Assembly (NCBI GenBank): GCA_017427775.1
Contig: JAFRSD010000043.1
Coordinates: 1-64,000, forward strand
Reading direction: 5' to 3'
Source: Lachnospiraceae bacterium
Lineage (GTDB): Bacteria > Bacillota > Clostridia > Lachnospirales > Lachnospiraceae
Length of the DNA stretch: 64,000 bases
The notes below the pieces were generated by a model that was given only the letters and a program-made list of their open reading frames with translations, had not been told where the DNA came from and searched no databases. The position numbers and the translations under genes were made by a program. This document shows, piece after piece, positions 51,440-61,339 of the stretch (position 1 is its first letter; the number at the start of each line of letters is the position of its first letter).

Positions 51440-53119
51440 TTACATCTTCCCGAGCGCGTGCCTGGCGGCGATCATGCCGAAGGTGTAGCAGCGCCCTAAG
51501 GAAAGTCCCGTCTGATGGAACGGATAATCCGCTCCGCCGTAGAACGGTCCGCCGAGGTTCCCGACGCAGTACAGCCCGGGGATTACATTGCCCTCTGCCG
51601 TCAGCGCCTGTCCGTTTTCGTTGATCACGACGCCCGATACGCCTGCCGAAACACGGATATGCTTTCTTGCACCCCAAAACGGTGCCTTCTCGATCTTATG
51701 CAGGTACTGCGCGGGCTTTCCGAAATCATCGTCACAGCCTTTGTCGCACAGTTCGTTGTAGCGGTCGATCGAGGCCTTCATCGTCTCATACGGGATGTCC
51801 AGCTCTTTCGCCAGCTGCCCGAGCGTATCGCAGCAGTGCAGGTCAATCAGGTTCTTAAAGACGCCCTGCGGGTCCGCAACGGCACCCGGAATGAACTTCT
51901 GCATGACAACCGGCGGGATCTTCCCTTCCACGAAGCTTTCCGCGGGCCAGTTCATATAGTCACTGTCATAGATCGAGCAGTACCAGCCCTTCGACCCCTT
52001 CTCGCGGTGCTCCGGGTCAAGCATGGAACCCTTATAGGCCGGCTGGTATTTCAACAGATTGCCCATATAGACAAATCCGGTGTATTCGTTCGTAAACCGT
52101 TCCCCGTTCATGTTCAGGTATAAAAACGGCTCTTCCCACATCAGTGCCGAGTCGAAATCGTGCATCATTTTCGTGTGTCCCTGGGGCTCCATGTGCGCGC
52201 CGGCACTCATGGCAAGGACATGTCCGTCACCGGTCTTGCCGTGCTGCTTCTTGTCAAATTCCGCGATATCAGGACACCACCGCTCTACCATGGCCGCATT
52301 GTTGGTATAATCGCCCGTTGCAAGGATCACTGCCTTAGAGGCACGGAATTCAATATAGGCGTCGTCCGCGGTCTTTCCGATCACGCCGGTCACCCGTCCG
52401 TTCTTTGTAAGAAGTTTAACCGCAGGCGTCTGGAAAAAGGTCTCCAGATTCGCGTGGTCCTTCTTGATGTTGTCCACGATCTTACGAAGCGCGTTGCCGA
52501 CATTTAACGGCTTCGGACCGACCCACGGTGCCCAGAAATAGCAATGGTCGTCGCCGTATTCGTAGGTGTTACCCCGTTCTCTCCAGGTACCCGTAAAATC
52601 ACCGCTCGTGCAACGGAAAGCGCATAACTTGTCCCCGTCGTTCATCAGGGAAGCGCAGTCGGTATTGCTGTCCACTTTGCTTCCGTCACCGTATTCCGTT
52701 TCCTTGGTAAGACCTGCCCGGTTCCAGAACCAGATCATCGCTTCTTCGGAATGCTCCGCGTAAGCGCGCAGCTGCTTCACGTCCGCTCTCCAGTCGCAGA
52801 GGCTGTTCGTGTGGTGGATCCACTTCGCGATCCCGGCCTCGGTCGAGCGCGATTTGATGATCGCGGAGCCGCAGTTACCCTGGGACACAACCGTTGCCTC
52901 CTTCTGTAAAAGGGCAACCTTCGCGCCGAGTTCCGCCGCCCAGCCTGCCGCAGGAACACCAGCCGCGCCGGCGCCGACTACGACGATGTCATATTCCCGC
53001 ACTTCGGAAGGGGTAATTGTCCCGAGCTCACAGCCCGATGCCTGCACTTCCTCTTCCGTCAGTCCCAAAGGGACTGCCTTCTTAAAACCTTCTGTCTGAC
53101 TGCTGTTCTCGTTCTTCAT
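51440..53119 (-). CDS. FAD-dependent oxidoreductase, fumarate reductase flavoprotein-like
   Basis: A 559-residue flavoprotein of the FAD_binding_2 group (fumarate/urocanate reductase-like). YDIVVVGAGAAGVPAAGWAAEL with GAGAAG at 49-54 binds FAD; a large capping domain lies in the middle with KTGDGHVLAMSAGAHMEP; and the C-terminal FAD loop ends VSGVVINENGQALTAEGNVIPGLYCVGN and GLSLGRCYTFGMIAARHA. There is no signal peptide, FMN-binding domain or heme motif, so it is a soluble cytoplasmic enzyme. Substrate cannot be assigned; an alkene-carboxylate or a steroid-like compound is possible. ATG 53119 is chosen over a further upstream frame. It appears to be a single gene. Confidence 0.88.
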   Translation of the reverse strand: MKNENSSQTEGFKKAVPLGLTEEEVQASGCELGTITPSEVREYDIVVVGAGAAGVPAAGWAAELGAKVALLQKEATVVSQGNCGSAIIKSRSTEAGIAKWIHHTNSLCDWRADVKQLRAYAEHSEEAMIWFWNRAGLTKETEYGDGSKVDSNTDCASLMNDGDKLCAFRCTSGDFTGTWRERGNTYEYGDDHCYFWAPWVGPKPLNVGNALRKIVDNIKKDHANLETFFQTPAVKLLTKNGRVTGVIGKTADDAYIEFRASKAVILATGDYTNNAAMVERWCPDIAEFDKKQHGKTGDGHVLAMSAGAHMEPQGHTKMMHDFDSALMWEEPFLYLNMNGERFTNEYTGFVYMGNLLKYQPAYKGSMLDPEHREKGSKGWYCSIYDSDYMNWPAESFVEGKIPPVVMQKFIPGAVADPQGVFKNLIDLHCCDTLGQLAKELDIPYETMKASIDRYNELCDKGCDDDFGKPAQYLHKIEKAPFWGARKHIRVSAGVSGVVINENGQALTAEGNVIPGLYCVGNLGGPFYGGADYPFHQTGLSLGRCYTFGMIAARHALGKM

Positions 53120-53183
53120 TTTCCGATCCTCTTTCCTCTGTTTTTGCAAAAATATTTTGCTTTTTCCTCATCCCAAAAAACGG

Positions 53184-53554: not shown

Positions 53555-53977
53555 TTATAAAGGTTCATCGCTTTTCAGTCTGCGTGCGCCCGAGAGTCTC
53601 GCCATCGCACGCGCCATCGACGCGCTCGAGAGGTTGTACTCGATCAGGCTCTGTTTCTGCTGCAACTGCTCCCGCGCGATCTCAAGTTCGCGCTGCGCTG
53701 CCCGGATATCGATCTCGTCCGGTCTCTCCGCGGAAAATGCAAGGATGTCCACGCGGTTATTTTCAACGTTCATCATACCGTCGCTCACGATGACCTCCTG
53801 CTCCGTTCCGTCCGGCAGACGGAAACGGACAAGGCCGTTCTCAACGACCGTCGCCATCGGCTGATGATGCGCCATAACCCCGAGGCTTCCGTCTACGCCC
53901 GGAAAGGACAGATAGACACACTCCCCCTCAAAAAACACGCGGTCACAGGCTGTGATTTTCAGATAAAACGAATTCAT
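53555..53977 (-). CDS. atpC: ATP synthase epsilon subunit
   Basis: A 140-residue protein. N-terminal beta-sandwich FYLKITACDRVFFEGECVYLSFPGVDGSLGVMAHHQPMAT, then the two-helix C-terminal domain (IDIRAAQRELEIAREQLQQKQS). It is part of the F1 rotor and can inhibit ATP hydrolysis. Starts 7 bases after the atpD stop with GAGGACGCA as ribosome site. Last gene of the operon. Confidence 0.95.
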   Translation of the reverse strand: MNSFYLKITACDRVFFEGECVYLSFPGVDGSLGVMAHHQPMATVVENGLVRFRLPDGTEQEVIVSDGMMNVENNRVDILAFSAERPDEIDIRAAQRELEIAREQLQQKQSLIEYNLSSASMARAMARLSGARRLKSDEPL

Positions 53978-53984
53978 TGCGTCC

Positions 53985-55397
<1,413 letters not shown>

Positions 55398-55403
55398 TTA
55401 TCC

Positions 55404-56321
55404 TTACTTCTTATTCTTCTCTTTCTTGCGGCGCAGTGCTTTCGCTCCGCCGATGACTTCCGTGATCTCCTGCGTGATCGCCGCCTGCCGGGTACGGTTG
55501 TACTCGACCGAAAGTCCGTTTAACATCTTGTCGCCGTTATCGGTCGCGGTCTGCATCGCAAGCATCCGGGCGCTTTCTTCGGAGGCAAAGCTCTCGGTCA
55601 GCGCACCATACAGATAACCGGTAACATAGTTCTTCGTCAGGTATCCGAGAACGTCCTCCGGCGACGGATAGATCAGGTAGTCGCCGTCCTTTGCCATGTC
55701 TCCTTTGGCCTTCATGGATGCCCGCAGGAACGCGCTCGTACGAAGCGGCAGCAGCTGCTCCTTTACGACTTCCTCGGTCAGCGTGTTCACCATACGCGTG
55801 TAAATGATATAGATCTCATCGAGTTCCTCGCGGTCATACAGATCCATCAGGTACTCGGTCATAACACGGGCGCGGTGGATTGACGGATCATATGCCGTCG
55901 CGTGAAAATCGTCCGCGATGTGTTCGCTCAGGTCGTGAAACGCATGGCGCCCGTACTCTCCGACGAAGAAGAGCCGGAAGTCCTCCGCGCCGGCAATCTC
56001 CTCGCGCGCCATCTTTAAGATGTTATTGTTATACGCGCCGGCCATGCCTTTGTCGCCGGTCACGATAATGAAACCCTTCTTCTTAACGGTTTCCTTTTCA
56101 TCCTTCTGACGGTTATCGAAGTACAGGTGTCTGATCTCCGGAAAATGAAGAAGGATATCCGCGATCTGCCGCTTCAGCCCTTCGAAATACGGCGCCGTCT
56201 CGGCCAGCTTGTTCTTCGCCTTCTGCACCTTCATCGAGGAGACCATGTACATCGCCTTCGTGATCTTCATCGTGTCGCTGATGCTCTTTATTCGGTTTTG
56301 GATTTCTCTTGCCTGCGCCAT
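55404..56321 (-). CDS. atpG: ATP synthase gamma subunit
   Basis: The central shaft of F1, 305 residues. N-terminal helix QNRIKSISDTMKITKAMYMVSSMKVQKAK and C-terminal helix ESARMLAMQTATDNGDKMLNGLSVEYNRTRQAAITQEITEVIGGA form the coiled coil; VTGDKGMAGAYNNNIL is the central-domain motif. It overlaps the delta/alpha fusion by 34 bases, so translation is coupled. ATG 56321 has GGGGAG at 9 bases. Confidence 0.96.
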   Translation of the reverse strand: MAQAREIQNRIKSISDTMKITKAMYMVSSMKVQKAKNKLAETAPYFEGLKRQIADILLHFPEIRHLYFDNRQKDEKETVKKKGFIIVTGDKGMAGAYNNNILKMAREEIAGAEDFRLFFVGEYGRHAFHDLSEHIADDFHATAYDPSIHRARVMTEYLMDLYDREELDEIYIIYTRMVNTLTEEVVKEQLLPLRTSAFLRASMKAKGDMAKDGDYLIYPSPEDVLGYLTKNYVTGYLYGALTESFASEESARMLAMQTATDNGDKMLNGLSVEYNRTRQAAITQEITEVIGGAKALRRKKEKNKK

Positions 56322-58051
56322 TCAAAATACTCCCCGACAGCCTTCTCTAAGCTGTCCCGAAGATCGTCGGGCAATTTGCCGCCCGATTCCAACAGATTCA
56401 GCATGTCTCCGTGCTTCTGGTCCATATATTCGAGTAATCCTTCGCGGTAATCGCGCACCTCTTTCACTGGAATATCCGCGAACAGATGCTTGCCCGCCGC
56501 AACCAGCAGAACAATCTGCTGCGGGATTGTAAACGGATGCTGCAGCGGCTGCTTCAGAAGTTCCATCAGGGAACTTCCGTGTCTGAGCTGCTTCTTCGTA
56601 TTTTCATCGAGATCCGAGGAGAACTGCGTGAACACTTCCATCTCACGGTACTGTGCAAGATCGATACGGATCGTGCCTGCCGCCTTCTTCATCGCCTTTG
56701 TCTGCGCCGCACCGCCGACACGCGATACGGAGAGACCGACGTTAACGGCCGGACGGCGTCCCGCGCGGAACAGCTCGCTCTCGAGGAAAATCTGACCGTC
56801 CGTGATGGAGATCACGTTGGTCGGAATGTATGCGGACACATCGCCCGCCTGGGTTTCTATGATCGGTAATGCCGTAATGGAACCGCCGCCGAGCTCGTCG
56901 CTGAGTCTCGCGGAACGCTCAAGAAGGCGGGAATGCAGATAGAATACGTCGCCGGGATATGCCTCACGTCCCGGGGAACGCTCTAAAAGGAGCGAGATCG
57001 CGCGGTACGCAACCGCGTGCTTCGAAAGGTCGTCGTATACGATCAGAACGTCCTTTCCTTTATGCATAAAATACTCCGCGAGCGCGGTTCCCGAATACGG
57101 TGCCGCATACTGAAGCGGTGCCGGGTCGGATGCCGTCGAGGCAACCACGCACGTATAGTCGAAGGCGTCGTATTTGCGTAATATATTGGTTAACTGTGCG
57201 ATCGAAGAAGCCTTCTGGCCGATCGCGACGTAGATGCAGATAACGTCCTTGCCCTTCTGGTTCAGGATCGTATCGATCGCGATGGAAGTCTTGCCGGTCT
57301 GGCGGTCGCCGATGATCAGCTCACGCTGTCCGCGGCCGATCGGGAACATCGAATCGATTGCGAGAATACCGGTCTCCAAAGGCTTGTTTACGGACTTTCT
57401 TTCGCGGATGGAAGGTGCCGGCTGCTCGATCGGACGGAAGTCCTCCTGTGCGATCTCCTCTTCGCCGTCAAGCGGGTTGCCGAGTGCGTCCACAACTCTT
57501 CCGAGGTAGCCGTCGCCGACCGCGATGCCGGCCATCTTGCCGGTGCGCGCCACATGATCTCCCGCGCGGATGCCGGTGTCGCGTCCGAACAGAACGGCGC
57601 ATACCTCATCCTGACGGATATCAAGGATCATGCCCTTTACGCCGTTGCCGAACACAACGATCTCACCGTAACGGACATGCTCGATGCCCTCGATGAAAGC
57701 GATGCCGTCGCCGACGCGGGTAACGTTGCCGACCTCGCGGGCAGTCGCCTCAAGGCGGTACTCGTCGATATTGGCGCGCAGTCCGGACAGAACGTCCTTC
57801 TGCTTGCGGCCTTCCCGCGCGGTATCCCCGAGACGCTGTGACAGTTTCTCGCGGAACTGCTCGATACGGCCCCGTTCGCTCCAGTCATATTCCTTTGTCC
57901 CGAAACGCAGAATAAAGCCGCTTCCGAGCGACTCATCCCTTCTAACTTCGATTGTAACCTCCTCCGCGCCGCTCTGCCTGCGGACGAACTCCGTAAAGCC
58001 CGCAAGCTGCGCCTCGGTAGGCGGGAATACACATATCAGTGTTGCCGTCAT
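56288..58051 (-). CDS. atpHA: ATP synthase delta C-terminal domain fused to alpha subunit
   Basis: A 587-residue protein, about 80 longer than alpha. Residues 1-75 match the C-terminal domain of delta: TATLICVFPPTEAQLAGF, VTIEVRRDESLGSGFILRFG, then WSERGRIEQFREKLSQRL. From about 85 the alpha N-terminus begins (KDVLSGLRANIDEY... EVGNVTRVGDGIAFIEG); P-loop GDRQTGKT at 248-255 is shifted by about 79 against standard AtpA; APYSGTALAEYF and ALPIIETQAGDVSAYIPTNVISITDGQIFLESELF are normal. No ATG, GTG or TTG start exists between the domains, so free alpha is not obviously made. No delta N-terminal domain is recognisable anywhere in the operon. ATG 58051 follows AAAGG. Confidence 0.93.
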   Translation of the reverse strand: MTATLICVFPPTEAQLAGFTEFVRRQSGAEEVTIEVRRDESLGSGFILRFGTKEYDWSERGRIEQFREKLSQRLGDTAREGRKQKDVLSGLRANIDEYRLEATAREVGNVTRVGDGIAFIEGIEHVRYGEIVVFGNGVKGMILDIRQDEVCAVLFGRDTGIRAGDHVARTGKMAGIAVGDGYLGRVVDALGNPLDGEEEIAQEDFRPIEQPAPSIRERKSVNKPLETGILAIDSMFPIGRGQRELIIGDRQTGKTSIAIDTILNQKGKDVICIYVAIGQKASSIAQLTNILRKYDAFDYTCVVASTASDPAPLQYAAPYSGTALAEYFMHKGKDVLIVYDDLSKHAVAYRAISLLLERSPGREAYPGDVFYLHSRLLERSARLSDELGGGSITALPIIETQAGDVSAYIPTNVISITDGQIFLESELFRAGRRPAVNVGLSVSRVGGAAQTKAMKKAAGTIRIDLAQYREMEVFTQFSSDLDENTKKQLRHGSSLMELLKQPLQHPFTIPQQIVLLVAAGKHLFADIPVKEVRDYREGLLEYMDQKHGDMLNLLESGGKLPDDLRDSLEKAVGEYFEWRRQEKSKTE

Positions 58052-58073
58052 TTCCGTACCTTTCCCGGACCGT

Positions 58074-58598
58074 TTATTCGGTTTCGCCTTCCGCCTTTTC
58101 CGGCTCCGAAACCGCTTCGTCCTTCGCCACTTCATTCAAAAACTGCTCATACAGGGCATCCTCGTAGCCGGCGCCGCGCCGCTCTCCGACGTTCTTCTCG
58201 GTAGCGATCGCGATCATGTCGGCAATCTCCTGCTCTGCATCGGCCACGATCCTGGCCTTGCTGCGTGCGGCGTCCTCCGTCGCATCCGCTTCAATCCGTT
58301 TCGCGGTCGAACGGGCGTTGTTGACGATTTTTTTATACTCCTCGTCCGCCTGCTTACGCGCTTTGGCGATGATCTGTCTCCGTTCCTCCTCCGTATCGGA
58401 GAGGCATTTCTCGTAGCGGGCCTTCACAGCCTCCGCCTCCGCGGTCTTGGCCTTCGCGAGCGCATTCTCTCGGTCCGCCTCCGCCTGTCTTGCCTCTAAG
58501 ATCTTACGGACGGGCTTGAACAGAAAATACCACATCGCACCCACCAGGATCAGCAGGTTGATCACGGTAAATAACAAATTCCAGTCAAGTTTCAGCAT
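58074..58598 (-). CDS. atpF: ATP synthase b subunit
   Basis: A 174-residue peripheral-stalk subunit: N-terminal membrane helix (LLFTVINLLILVGAMWYFLFKPV), then a long charged coiled coil (EARQAEADRENALAKAKTAEAEAVKARYEKCL). The C-terminus is longer and acidic (DALYEQFLNEVAKDEAVSEP), with DALYEQFL faintly like the start of a delta N-terminal domain but too short to be one. Normally b binds the delta C-terminal domain; here that domain is attached to alpha. Ribosome site AAAGGTG at 58598. Confidence 0.93.
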   Translation of the reverse strand: MLKLDWNLLFTVINLLILVGAMWYFLFKPVRKILEARQAEADRENALAKAKTAEAEAVKARYEKCLSDTEEERRQIIAKARKQADEEYKKIVNNARSTAKRIEADATEDAARSKARIVADAEQEIADMIAIATEKNVGERRGAGYEDALYEQFLNEVAKDEAVSEPEKAEGETE

Positions 58599-58633: not shown

Positions 58634-58861
58634 CTATTTCAGCATGATAATGATCAGGAACGCAATAACGAAGCCGTAGATGGCCGTTGCCTCCGCGAGT
58701 GCACATCCGAGGATCAGAGCCTTGTTGATCTTGCCGTCCGCTTCGGGCTGTCTTGCGATGGCTTCCGCTGCCTTACCGGTTGCGATACCGATACCGATAC
58801 CTGCGCCGAGCGCGGAAAGAACGGCGATACCCGCTCCGATTGCAATAAGAGTTGTGTTCAT
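58634..58861 (-). CDS. atpE: ATP synthase c subunit
   Basis: A 75-residue two-helix proteolipid: [33 protein letters not shown] loop and [24 protein letters not shown]. The ion-binding Glu is in [10 protein letters not shown]. It has Ile in place of the Gln of Na+ enzymes in helix 1 and Ala after the Glu instead of Ser, so proton coupling is likely. ATG 58861 has AGGAGG upstream. Confidence 0.96.
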
Positions 58862-58882: not shown

Positions 58883-59572
58883 TTATTCTATCTCTTCACG
58901 TATATACAGACTTGTCAAGAAAACAAATACATATGCCTGCAGCAGTCCGTCGAACAGGTCGAAGTACAGGCAGAATACAGCCGGCAGCAGAATGTTGCGG
59001 GTGATCGTCTTGATGAGCTCCATGATGACAAATGCACCGACGACGTTACCGAACAGTCGCATGCACAGTGAAAGCGGCCGCGTGAACACCTCGAGAATAT
59101 TGATCGGCGTCACGACGGCGATCGGCTCGGTAAACTTGTGCAGCCATTTCCGCACGCCGAGATAATAGATTCCGGCGGCCTCCACCAGAACGATGCTCAT
59201 CAACGCGAGCGCCGCGGTTACATTCAGGTCCTTGGTCGGCGCCTTGAAGCCGAAGATGCCCGAAATGTTCGCGATGCCGACATACAGCATGACCGTGCAG
59301 AGATACGGGACGAAAGCCTTTCCCCTCTCTCCGACCATGCCCTCGACAAGGCCGCTCAGCTTGGTTACGATCCACTCCGCGAGAGCCTGCCGCTTTGAAA
59401 TATTATGCAGCGTCATGTTGCGGGTAAGAAGAAACGCGCAAAGGATTAAAACCGCCATGATGATCCATGTCACCACGACCGATTCGGAAACCGGAATGCC
59501 GCCGAATATCGGAATCCGGAAGACTTCCTTCACTTCCAGTTCTTCATTGATTATTTCGGAAAGCTGATCCAC
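58883..59572 (-). CDS. atpB: ATP synthase a subunit
   Basis: A 229-residue Fo subunit with about six membrane helices. The essential Arg is in RPLSLCMRLFGNVVGAF, and FVPYLCTVMLYVGIANISGIFGF is a conserved helix. Start is a GTG at 59572 (MDQLSEIINEE), 11 bases after AAAGGAG; two nearby ATG codons are out of frame. First gene of the operon; no atpI precedes it. Confidence 0.94.
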   Translation of the reverse strand: MDQLSEIINEELEVKEVFRIPIFGGIPVSESVVVTWIIMAVLILCAFLLTRNMTLHNISKRQALAEWIVTKLSGLVEGMVGERGKAFVPYLCTVMLYVGIANISGIFGFKAPTKDLNVTAALALMSIVLVEAAGIYYLGVRKWLHKFTEPIAVVTPINILEVFTRPLSLCMRLFGNVVGAFVIMELIKTITRNILLPAVFCLYFDLFDGLLQAYVFVFLTSLYIREEIE

Positions 59573-59678: not shown

Positions 59679-60434
59679 CTACTGCTGCCAGAGCGTCCGG
59701 AGCGAATCCTGCAGGCTGTCCGGCAGACGCCGTCCGCTGAGGACTGCCTTACGGTCGGCCGTTTCCTTTTCATTTTGAAAACCGGTCGTCACGTAAACAT
59801 CGTTCTTATAAAGGAACAGTTCCCCGCAGGCGCGGTACCACATACGGTCTTCGGAAAATGCGAACAGCTCGCGGCGTCCGTCGTAATCCTCGGTGATCGA
59901 CTTGTCCGTGATCTTTACGGGTTCCTCTCCCGCAAGAGCAGTCTCCCGGATGATCTCGTAGGCCTCTTCCTTGAGAACTACGAAGCTGCCGGTATCCTTC
60001 ATCCCGCTGATCGCACAATGAACCGGATAATTCGAAAGATCGGCAAGCCGTTCCTTCTCGGCCTCGGCGATCTCCTTCTTCGCATAGATGCGGCCGACCG
60101 AATCGACCAGGTAGTCCCCTGACGCATCATCCTTGACCCGGTAGAGTACGGCCATGGTCATGATGCCGCCCGAAACGATTGCGCCCGCGCGCTCGCCGCG
60201 CTGCGTCTTCAAAACATCAACGATACCCGAGCCGACATAAGCCTCTGTATCGACGTCGTTGATCAGCCGGTAGTGTACGTTCTTCAGCACCAGCTCATCC
60301 CGGCCGTCAACGTACTTGGCCTTGTCCGTTCCCCACTTCGGACGAAAAGCCAGGAACAGGAACAGTGTCCCGAAGATGACGATCGATCCGATAGCGATCA
60401 GCGGATACCATTTTCTGAAAAAGTTAAAAACCAA
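59679..60434 (-). CDS. Membrane-anchored protein, unknown function
   Basis: A 251-residue protein with an N-terminal membrane helix (YPLIAIGSIVIFGTLFLFLAF) and an outer beta-rich domain (VHYRLINDVDTEAYVGSGIVDVLKTQ, VDSVGRIYAKKEIAEAEKERL, NDVYVTTGFQNEKETADRKAV). I do not recognise it. A longer frame starts at ATG 60494 but overlaps the next gene and lacks a ribosome site; a TTG at 60434 follows GGGGGAAAG and gives a clean signal-anchor (MVFNFFRKWYPL), so I choose it. Confidence 0.65.
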   Translation of the reverse strand: MVFNFFRKWYPLIAIGSIVIFGTLFLFLAFRPKWGTDKAKYVDGRDELVLKNVHYRLINDVDTEAYVGSGIVDVLKTQRGERAGAIVSGGIMTMAVLYRVKDDASGDYLVDSVGRIYAKKEIAEAEKERLADLSNYPVHCAISGMKDTGSFVVLKEEAYEIIRETALAGEEPVKITDKSITEDYDGRRELFAFSEDRMWYRACGELFLYKNDVYVTTGFQNEKETADRKAVLSGRRLPDSLQDSLRTLWQQ

Positions 60435-60463
60435 CTTGCTTTCCCCCTGTAAATTACGGCTTT

Positions 60464-61339
60464 CTAACGGAACCAGCGGCATGCCGCGCCGCACGGAAGC
60501 GTAAGGCCCGTGTTCGTAACGGGAAGGCCGATCTCGTCGCCCTGTACCGTTCCGCCGAAACGCGGCGTCAGAACAAGTCCCGCGATGTAAGCCATCATTG
60601 CGGGCTGCAGTCCGGTTGTATAGGAATTGATCAAAAAGAACAGCGGATCGTCGCTCAGAACATCCGCGCAGAGTTTTACAAGATCATAGATGGCGTCTTC
60701 GATCTTCCACACCTCGTCGTTCGGTCCGCGCCCGTAAGACGGCGGATCCATGATCACGGCGTCGTATCGGTTTCCGCGGCGGATCTCGCGTTCGACGAAT
60801 TTGCGGCAGTCATCGACGATATAACGGATCGGGGCGTCGGCCAGGCCGGATGCAGAGGCATTCTCCTTGGCCCAGTGCACCATTCCTTTGGAAGCATCGA
60901 CATGGGTTACCTGCGCGTCGGCTGCAGCTGCGGCAAGTGTCGCGCCGCCCGTGTAGGCGAACAGGTTCAATACTTTAACAGGCTCGCCGGGCTTTTCGGC
61001 GCGGCGCTTTTCAATAAGCTCCGAGAACCAGTCCCAGTTGGCTGCCTGCTCGGGAAACAGACCGGTGTGTTTAAAGCTGAACGGCTGAAGATGAAAGCGC
61101 AGATTCTTATAGGAAATCCACCACTCTTTCGGAAGGTTGAAGAACTCCCACTCCCCGCCGCCTTTCGCGCTGCGGTGGTAGTGCGCGTTGGGCTTTTTCC
61201 AGCCGTAATGCTTCCGTTCGGTGTTCCATAACACCTGCGGATCCGGACGGATCAGAAGAAAGTCGCCCCACCGTTCGAGCTTCTCCTTTCCGGAAGTGTC
61301 GATTACCTCATAATCTTTCCAGCCGTCTGCTATCCACAT
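60464..61339 (-). CDS. Class I SAM-dependent methyltransferase, RlmI/RlmK-like
   Basis: A 291-residue enzyme. VKVLNLFAYTGGATLAAAAADAQVTHVDASKGMVHWAKEN binds SAM and VIMDPPSYGRGPNDEVWKIEDAI is the catalytic DPPSYGRG motif, as in 23S rRNA large-subunit methyltransferases. The N-terminal region (LERWGDFLLIRPDPQVLW) replaces a PUA domain. A paralogue by function lies at 8027-9235. Start ATG 61339 (MWIADGWKDYEV) has GAGGACG upstream. Target base is unknown. Confidence 0.87.
   Translation of the reverse strand: MWIADGWKDYEVIDTSGKEKLERWGDFLLIRPDPQVLWNTERKHYGWKKPNAHYHRSAKGGGEWEFFNLPKEWWISYKNLRFHLQPFSFKHTGLFPEQAANWDWFSELIEKRRAEKPGEPVKVLNLFAYTGGATLAAAAADAQVTHVDASKGMVHWAKENASASGLADAPIRYIVDDCRKFVEREIRRGNRYDAVIMDPPSYGRGPNDEVWKIEDAIYDLVKLCADVLSDDPLFFLINSYTTGLQPAMMAYIAGLVLTPRFGGTVQGDEIGLPVTNTGLTLPCGAACRWFR

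Follow-up and report, generated by a model that had tools for sequence, protein, structure and literature searches.

The F-type ATP synthase operon studied here lies in the window (the whole 64,000-nucleotide stretch of Lachnospiraceae DNA that was analysed) and raises the question of how many peripheral stalks an F1 head may carry when part of the stalk anchor δ is built into the α subunit. The gene concerned (56288..58051, minus strand) reads from an ATG at 58051 to its end at 56288, encodes 587 residues and is preceded by a Shine–Dalgarno-like AAAGG (58059..58063, minus strand, read from the sequence). The original prediction, which had placed the gene correctly and gave no strand, held that this AtpA is extended by the C-terminal domain (CTD) of δ (OSCP). 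Profile comparison bears this out: residues 2–70 (57842..58048, minus strand) match positions 104–172 of the 172 of Pfam OSCP (PF00213) at 29.2 bits, above the curated cut-off of 22.3, and a scan of the organism's own genome recovers the protein as an OSCP match at 32.6 bits (E 1.2e-7). A linker (residues 71–86; 57794..57841, minus strand) leads into α proper (56288..57793 with the stop codon, minus strand), where ATP-synt_ab_N, ATP-synt_ab and ATP-synt_ab_C match on the same protein and the GDRQTGKT motif is present. The Pfam result and conservation rule out a chance match or a mis-assigned start, as does the lack of any match to the δ N-terminal domain (NTD).

An AlphaFold2 model of the window protein has a mean pLDDT of 81.4. 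The CTD is modelled as strands and helices in the order E-H-E-E-E-H, with a pLDDT of 73–92 by ten-residue block, and residues 76–86 of the linker fall below 50. CTD and α share one open reading frame, so that a covalent tether replaces the non-covalent contact, as proposed. Within the first 200 codons in-frame ATG, GTG or TTG codons occur only at −27, 1, 133, 141 and 167; the stretch from codon 1 to codon 133 holds none, and hence no standard start lies between CTD and α from which free α could be made. This part of the original prediction also stands.

All other subunits of an F-type synthase are encoded in the same operon, on the minus strand and in the order a, c, b, fused α, γ, β, ε: atpB (58883..59572, 229 residues, Pfam ATP-synt_A), atpE (58634..58861, 75 residues, ATP-synt_C), atpF (58074..58598, 174 residues, ATP-synt_B, the sole b reading frame found in the locus), atpG (55404..56321, 305 residues), atpD (53985..55388, 467 residues) and atpC (53555..53977, 140 residues). 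No separate full-length δ was found in the operon, where δ is represented by the CTD on α. Custom NTD profiles detected no δ NTD in the locus, in agreement with the original prediction; as a control, the same profiles detected separate NTD and CTD in 60/60 loci whose α has no CTD. The locus thus combines a CTD on the α N-terminus, no NTD and an operon with no other δ, the architecture referred to below as δΔN-α or CTD-α. Upstream, atpB is adjoined by a 271-residue reading frame with one N-terminal hydrophobic stretch (59679-60494, minus strand). Downstream of the operon lies a 569-residue reading frame (51440-53149, minus strand), presumably a fumarate-reductase-type flavoprotein.

The architecture is real and widespread. 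A set of 185 loci with a scorable α, gathered by their relationship to the window protein and so not a random sample, with some near-duplicates (e.g. L068 and L113 from one genome), divides into 63 CTD-α fusions, 62 full δ-α fusions and 60 loci with separate genes; two more (L106 and L165) had no scorable α and stand outside this count. The scan of named genome contigs yielded at least 578 relatives (578 of the 593 listed stretches encode one), from which 80 loci were kept: 51 full δ-α fusions of about 670 residues, 28 CTD-α fusions and one with separate genes. The full fusions occur also in isolates and in a complete genome (L017, L038, L045) and include the named species Pseudobutyrivibrio ruminis DSM 9787 and P. 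xylanivorans DSM 14809. The titles Bacteroides sp. and Lactobacillus rogosae (L080 and L036) may mislead, as the respective α subunits group with Clostridia and Lachnospira loci. The only locus of the first scan in which δ and α are separate reading frames, a few bases apart, is L065:5689-7731. Three pattern matches in viral contigs were followed up and none is a relative.

A profile of 36 N-termini (A1) was then run on 150 genomes of family f1 (minimum completeness 95), which we take to be the Lachnospiraceae from the named loci. Sixty-seven regions with this α type, chosen by eye, comprise 10 full fusions, 22 CTD-α fusions, 34 separate arrangements and one that is unscorable at a contig end. 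With the window genome included, CTD-α is present in at least 23/150 and the full fusion in at least 10/150 family genomes, both being minima among matches listed down to E of about 1e-34. CTD-α also occurs in families f6, f24, f43 and f60, as seen across the order (147 genomes) and the phylum (249 genomes); in f43 a match was found in 4/8 genomes and all four are CTD-α, one of them ending at a contig end. The idea that the arrangement is unique to this genome is refuted by these further genomes and families.

The α tree suggests how the fused forms may have arisen. Class labels were fixed before any tree was built, and the sample had been picked as relatives of the window protein. On a careful tree of 82 α cores, from which the δ part was left out, the CTD-α label changes 11 times (bootstrap range 10–12), with seven changes forced by starred branches; confining the 29 CTD-α rows to one clade costs 426 log-likelihood units (p-AU 0.00066). 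A quick tree of β from the same operons (73 rows) requires 12 label changes and likewise rejects one clade (p-AU 1.6e-74). A single origin of the NTD-less form is therefore rejected on both subunits. A larger quick tree (184 rows, 180 of them different) has 18 label changes, seven of them forced, and gathers 59 CTD-α and 54 full fusions in one clade (95, starred) with the separate genes outside. A second clade (100, starred) is made up of seven full fusions, L098 adds one more full fusion, and L161 and L162-L164 carry CTD-α on α subunits outside the whole type. The window α sits in a clade that also includes full δ-α fusions. These results imply, as far as the trees can tell, that the δ N-domain was lost repeatedly after fusion. 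The simplest reading of the order of events would start from separate genes and pass through full fusion to repeated loss of the NTD, the change counts themselves carrying no direction. Two sister pairs display this step directly. In the sister pair L114 and L087, L114 shows an in-frame deletion of 243 nt, and in L070 and L071 the former shows one of 237 nt; the alignment of the pair L052/L061 contains no single clean in-frame deletion.

Sequence divergence was compared in distance-matched bins, in which pairs are not independent. At an α distance of about 0.28 the mean p-distance of the CTD is 0.674 for separate genes, 0.598 for full fusions and 0.565 for CTD-α. The lower divergence in the fused classes indicates that the CTD is conserved no less in fusions than as a free domain, and by this measure the fused CTD is not decaying. 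The α N-terminal helix (19 columns), a region placed against δ by Ueno et al. (PMC12229609), diverges in the opposite order at a core distance of about 0.26 (0.479 separate, 0.534 full, 0.581 CTD-α), an effect that is absent at core distances of 0.12–0.18 (0.360, 0.313 and 0.354, respectively). In full fusions the NTD/α ratio is 2.59 versus 2.83 in separate genes, which suggests that the NTD there is still constrained. Ratios taken against β are confounded by saturation, because the γ and ε ratios, too, are lower in the fused classes than in the separate one.

The design has an engineered counterpart. Ueno et al. (2025; PMC12229609) deleted residues 2–104 of Bacillus PS3 δ and fused the remainder to α. 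In their description the resulting δΔN-α FoF1 carries as many as three b2 stalks, each paired with an a-subunit, with about two a-subunits on average as judged by gel and an H+/ATP ratio of 5.8 versus 3.0. Cryo-EM found 0, 1, 2 and 3 stalks in 15, 51, 26 and 8% of the particles (mean 1.26). They argue that the δ NTD restricts the number of stalks to one, and state that every ATP synthase known to date has a single a-subunit, with H+/ATP varying via c-ring size. Their Discussion also points out that Acidaminococcus fermentans has a natural δ-α fusion in its operon with the NTD missing, refers to UniProt G4Q3K6 and A0A1I2C5T3, and predicts several stalks for the natural enzyme. With three natural cases named there, the architecture was already known in print for other bacteria. 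The window protein resembles the Acidaminococcus fermentans fusion, as described by those authors, in having an NTD-less δ on α; it differs in that its clade also includes full δ-α fusions.

Resemblance to the engineered chain was found in both sequence and model. In a PDB sequence search 9jc1_I aligns over a single segment (8-573 to 11-570, E 2.3e-184), and in a Foldseek search of the AlphaFold2 model against 350,542 chains the first three ranks are copies of 9jc1 (TMq 0.82, 0.79 and 0.83), followed at ranks 4–50 by ordinary α chains, as judged by title, at 0.72–0.76. By the target-normalised TM-score ordinary α chains are not below 9jc1 (up to 0.91 versus 0.84–0.87). The monomer model thus puts the chains of the triple-stalk structure first, with the caveat for CTD placement that linker residues 76–86 have a pLDDT <50. 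Both proteins carry the CTD on the α N-terminus, lack the δ NTD and are collinear, with 50–51% identity in the fold alignments; the window linker is longer by four residues in the alignment. The PS3 construct is designed, has a truncated ε and has had its stalks counted, whereas the window protein is natural and known here from its sequence.

Other unusual stalks are less similar. In the mycobacterial b-δ fusion stalk subunits are fused too, but δ is whole and is joined to b, not to α. N-ATPases have an operon order of their own, and we know of none with a δ CTD on α. Like the window operon they have no separate δ subunit; they possess a longer, E-like b (COGcollator paper) and a 17-membered c-ring, for which a high H+/ATP ratio is predicted (PMC12229609). 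The window operon differs in its order (a-c-b-α-γ-β-ε) and in a b of 174 residues that matches Pfam ATP-synt_B. Hackmann and Firkins (PMC4478896) report a complete set of F0F1 subunits (printed ATPF0ABC, ATPF1ABDEG) for 62 butyrivibrio genomes, and the word 'fused' is absent from the text of that paper. Among the open PMC papers listed on this subject we found no other paper on a δ-α fusion, nor any account of its breadth, of the full-fusion series, of repeated N-domain loss or of the triple fusion described next.

In one locus b is part of the same chain. The 778-residue protein at L108:2656-4992 (genome G054) joins b, δ CTD and α, with Pfam scores of 65 bits for ATP-synt_B, 29.1 for OSCP and 278.7 for ATP-synt_ab. 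All 185 loci have a single b reading frame, which in L108 is the fused one; b and α would therefore be tied 1:1, with three b per head unless the chain is cleaved. A search for b joined to CTD in 397 family genomes, with six candidates each, gave one uninterrupted b-δCTD-α reading frame (G054) among the matches listed. It comes from one assembly, the sole genome of its genus in the collection analysed, so that an assembly error is possible. Four further genomes (G110, G051, G074 and G280) show a b-to-CTD match in one frame that is broken by stops, and stop loss could create such a fusion. L197, considered as a second triple fusion, proved to be a full δ-α fusion. The AlphaFold2 model of the triple fusion has a low-confidence b–CTD junction and a b part without related sequences, and leaves docking unsettled.

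Whether another δ could serve the fused enzyme was addressed with a PF00213 search (E <= 0.01) of 38 genomes (39 handles, of which G115 and G313 denote a single genome), namely the CTD-α genomes of the family scan and those of 16 of the 28 named-scan CTD-α loci. In 10/38 (G034, G051, G054, G064, G092, G110, G307, G310, G311 and G316) no OSCP match other than CTD-α was found; six of these have a stated completeness of 96–99% and four have no figure given. In G051 and G054 the match extends upstream past the CTD into the in-frame b, and the NTD profiles found no NTD in either locus. A full δ stands beside CTD-α in 27/38 genomes, and one (G060) has fragments. The window genome itself has a second ATP synthase. 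The original prediction had named an independent full atpH elsewhere in the genome as evidence against it; there is one on contig C5 (151.5 bits), but it belongs to another complete operon with reading frames for a, c, b, δ, α, γ, β and ε. This operon has the same subunits and order as that of the window apart from δ, which is separate and full.

The two operons also differ in subunit c. That of C5 has the motif GQG...AETTGLY, which we take to be a Na+-binding signature. The window c reads GIGIATG...AEATAIY and lacks the Gln of this motif, so we infer that the window ATP synthase is probably H+-coupled. Among derived CTD-α loci (L117, L118, L119, L121, L122, L124, L126, L128, L157, L158 and L160) c has an N-terminal extension of very roughly 50–70 residues, in which a hydrophobic stretch resembling a signal peptide precedes the usual hairpin; the window c is without it. 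Neither the window genome nor G158, a member of its genus, gave a match to the Rnf (PF03116) or Ech/complex-I (PF00146) families, and among ten genomes searched PF03116 is present in 8 and PF00146 in 2. Neither complex is therefore a candidate partner in the window genome, where the fused enzyme could act as an ATP-driven proton exporter.

On balance we lean towards an F-type, probably H+-coupled synthase in which each α would carry its own b-docking domain, the δ CTD, and nothing encoded by the operon would cap the three-fold axis of the head. Several b2 stalks and a-subunits could then assemble per head, in which case the window operon might encode a naturally low-geared ATP synthase. The altered peripheral stalk of the original prediction is a fair inference from an NTD-less covalent fusion; its assumption of one b pair per F1 is not supported, given that up to three b2 stalks are described for the engineered protein, whose design is the same. 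We regard the multi-stalk enzyme as the best reading, at about even odds. The alignment with the 9jc1 chain and the modelled likeness to it, the stalks and H+/ATP ratio reported for that construct, CTD-α as the sole OSCP match in ten genomes, the recurrent NTD loss, a CTD that is kept while the α N-helix diverges at the larger distances, and the sole b of L108 fused to δCTD-α all argue for it. Against it, the L108 arrangement, seen in a single assembly, would supply three b per head where three b2 stalks need six; the α N-helix effect disappears at small distances; the target-normalised TM-score does not favour 9jc1 over ordinary α chains, and the modelled linker is of low confidence; the engineered particles averaged 1.26 stalks by cryo-EM; and the window genome has a full δ on C5 and no match to Rnf and Ech-type families. 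The main rival, which we doubt but take seriously, is a single-stalk enzyme in which one CTD holds the sole b2 stalk and two are idle, the fusion being a cheap anchor that then made the N-domain dispensable. It is kept alive by the full fusions, which persist in 62/185 loci even though the one axial site cannot take all three NTDs; surplus δ domains are evidently tolerated, and three CTDs are not proof of three stalks. That 15% of the engineered particles are stalkless and 51% have one stalk (PMC12229609) fits this rival as well. Its difficulty lies in the about two a-subunits on average and the doubled H+/ATP that accompany the lack of a δ NTD (PMC12229609), and in the relaxation of the α N-helix, at larger distances, where the CTD does not relax.

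Other explanations fare worse. Removal of the extension, or free α from an internal start, would leave few heads with several CTDs. Near the junction, 24/63 CTD-α and 8/62 full-fusion loci do have an in-frame ATG or GTG preceded by a strong Shine–Dalgarno sequence, but the window gene has no candidate start between codons 1 and 133 and the CTD is conserved, which makes this quite unlikely. It is very unlikely that the full δ of the C5 operon caps the fused head in a hybrid that keeps a single stalk: the 27/38 genomes with a full δ would allow it, but ten have no other OSCP match, six of them at the high stated completeness given above, and in the window genome the c ion motif differs between the two operons. 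All 28 CTD-α loci of the named scan are titled as metagenome assemblies, as an artefact of assembly or a chance resemblance would lead one to expect. Such an origin is scarcely conceivable for 63 CTD-α loci with an OSCP match above the curated cut-off in the window protein, some of them in genomes of few contigs (one in G470, five in G051, ten in G099 and G103), and given that isolates and a complete genome carry the full fusion; conservation refutes it.

Returning to the multi-stalk reading, we put forward, tentatively and at somewhat less than an even chance, a wider scenario. After a δ-α fusion in a Lachnospiraceae-centred clade the NTD would have been lost many times independently, and every such loss would have made room on the head for two further stalks and a-subunits. 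In this way bacteria of the gut and rumen would have gained multi-stalk, low-gear enzymes, here beside a normal-gear Na+-type enzyme and in one lineage with b locked 1:1.

Three natural sequences have been named in print, and the clade found here adds dozens, named full-fusion species included. Its series of separate genes, full fusion and NTD-less fusion allows a test of the δ NTD as the limiter of stalk number. If these gut and rumen bacteria do use several stalks, they would have a second natural way of setting the H+/ATP gear, and estimates of ATP yield for such fermenters would need revision.
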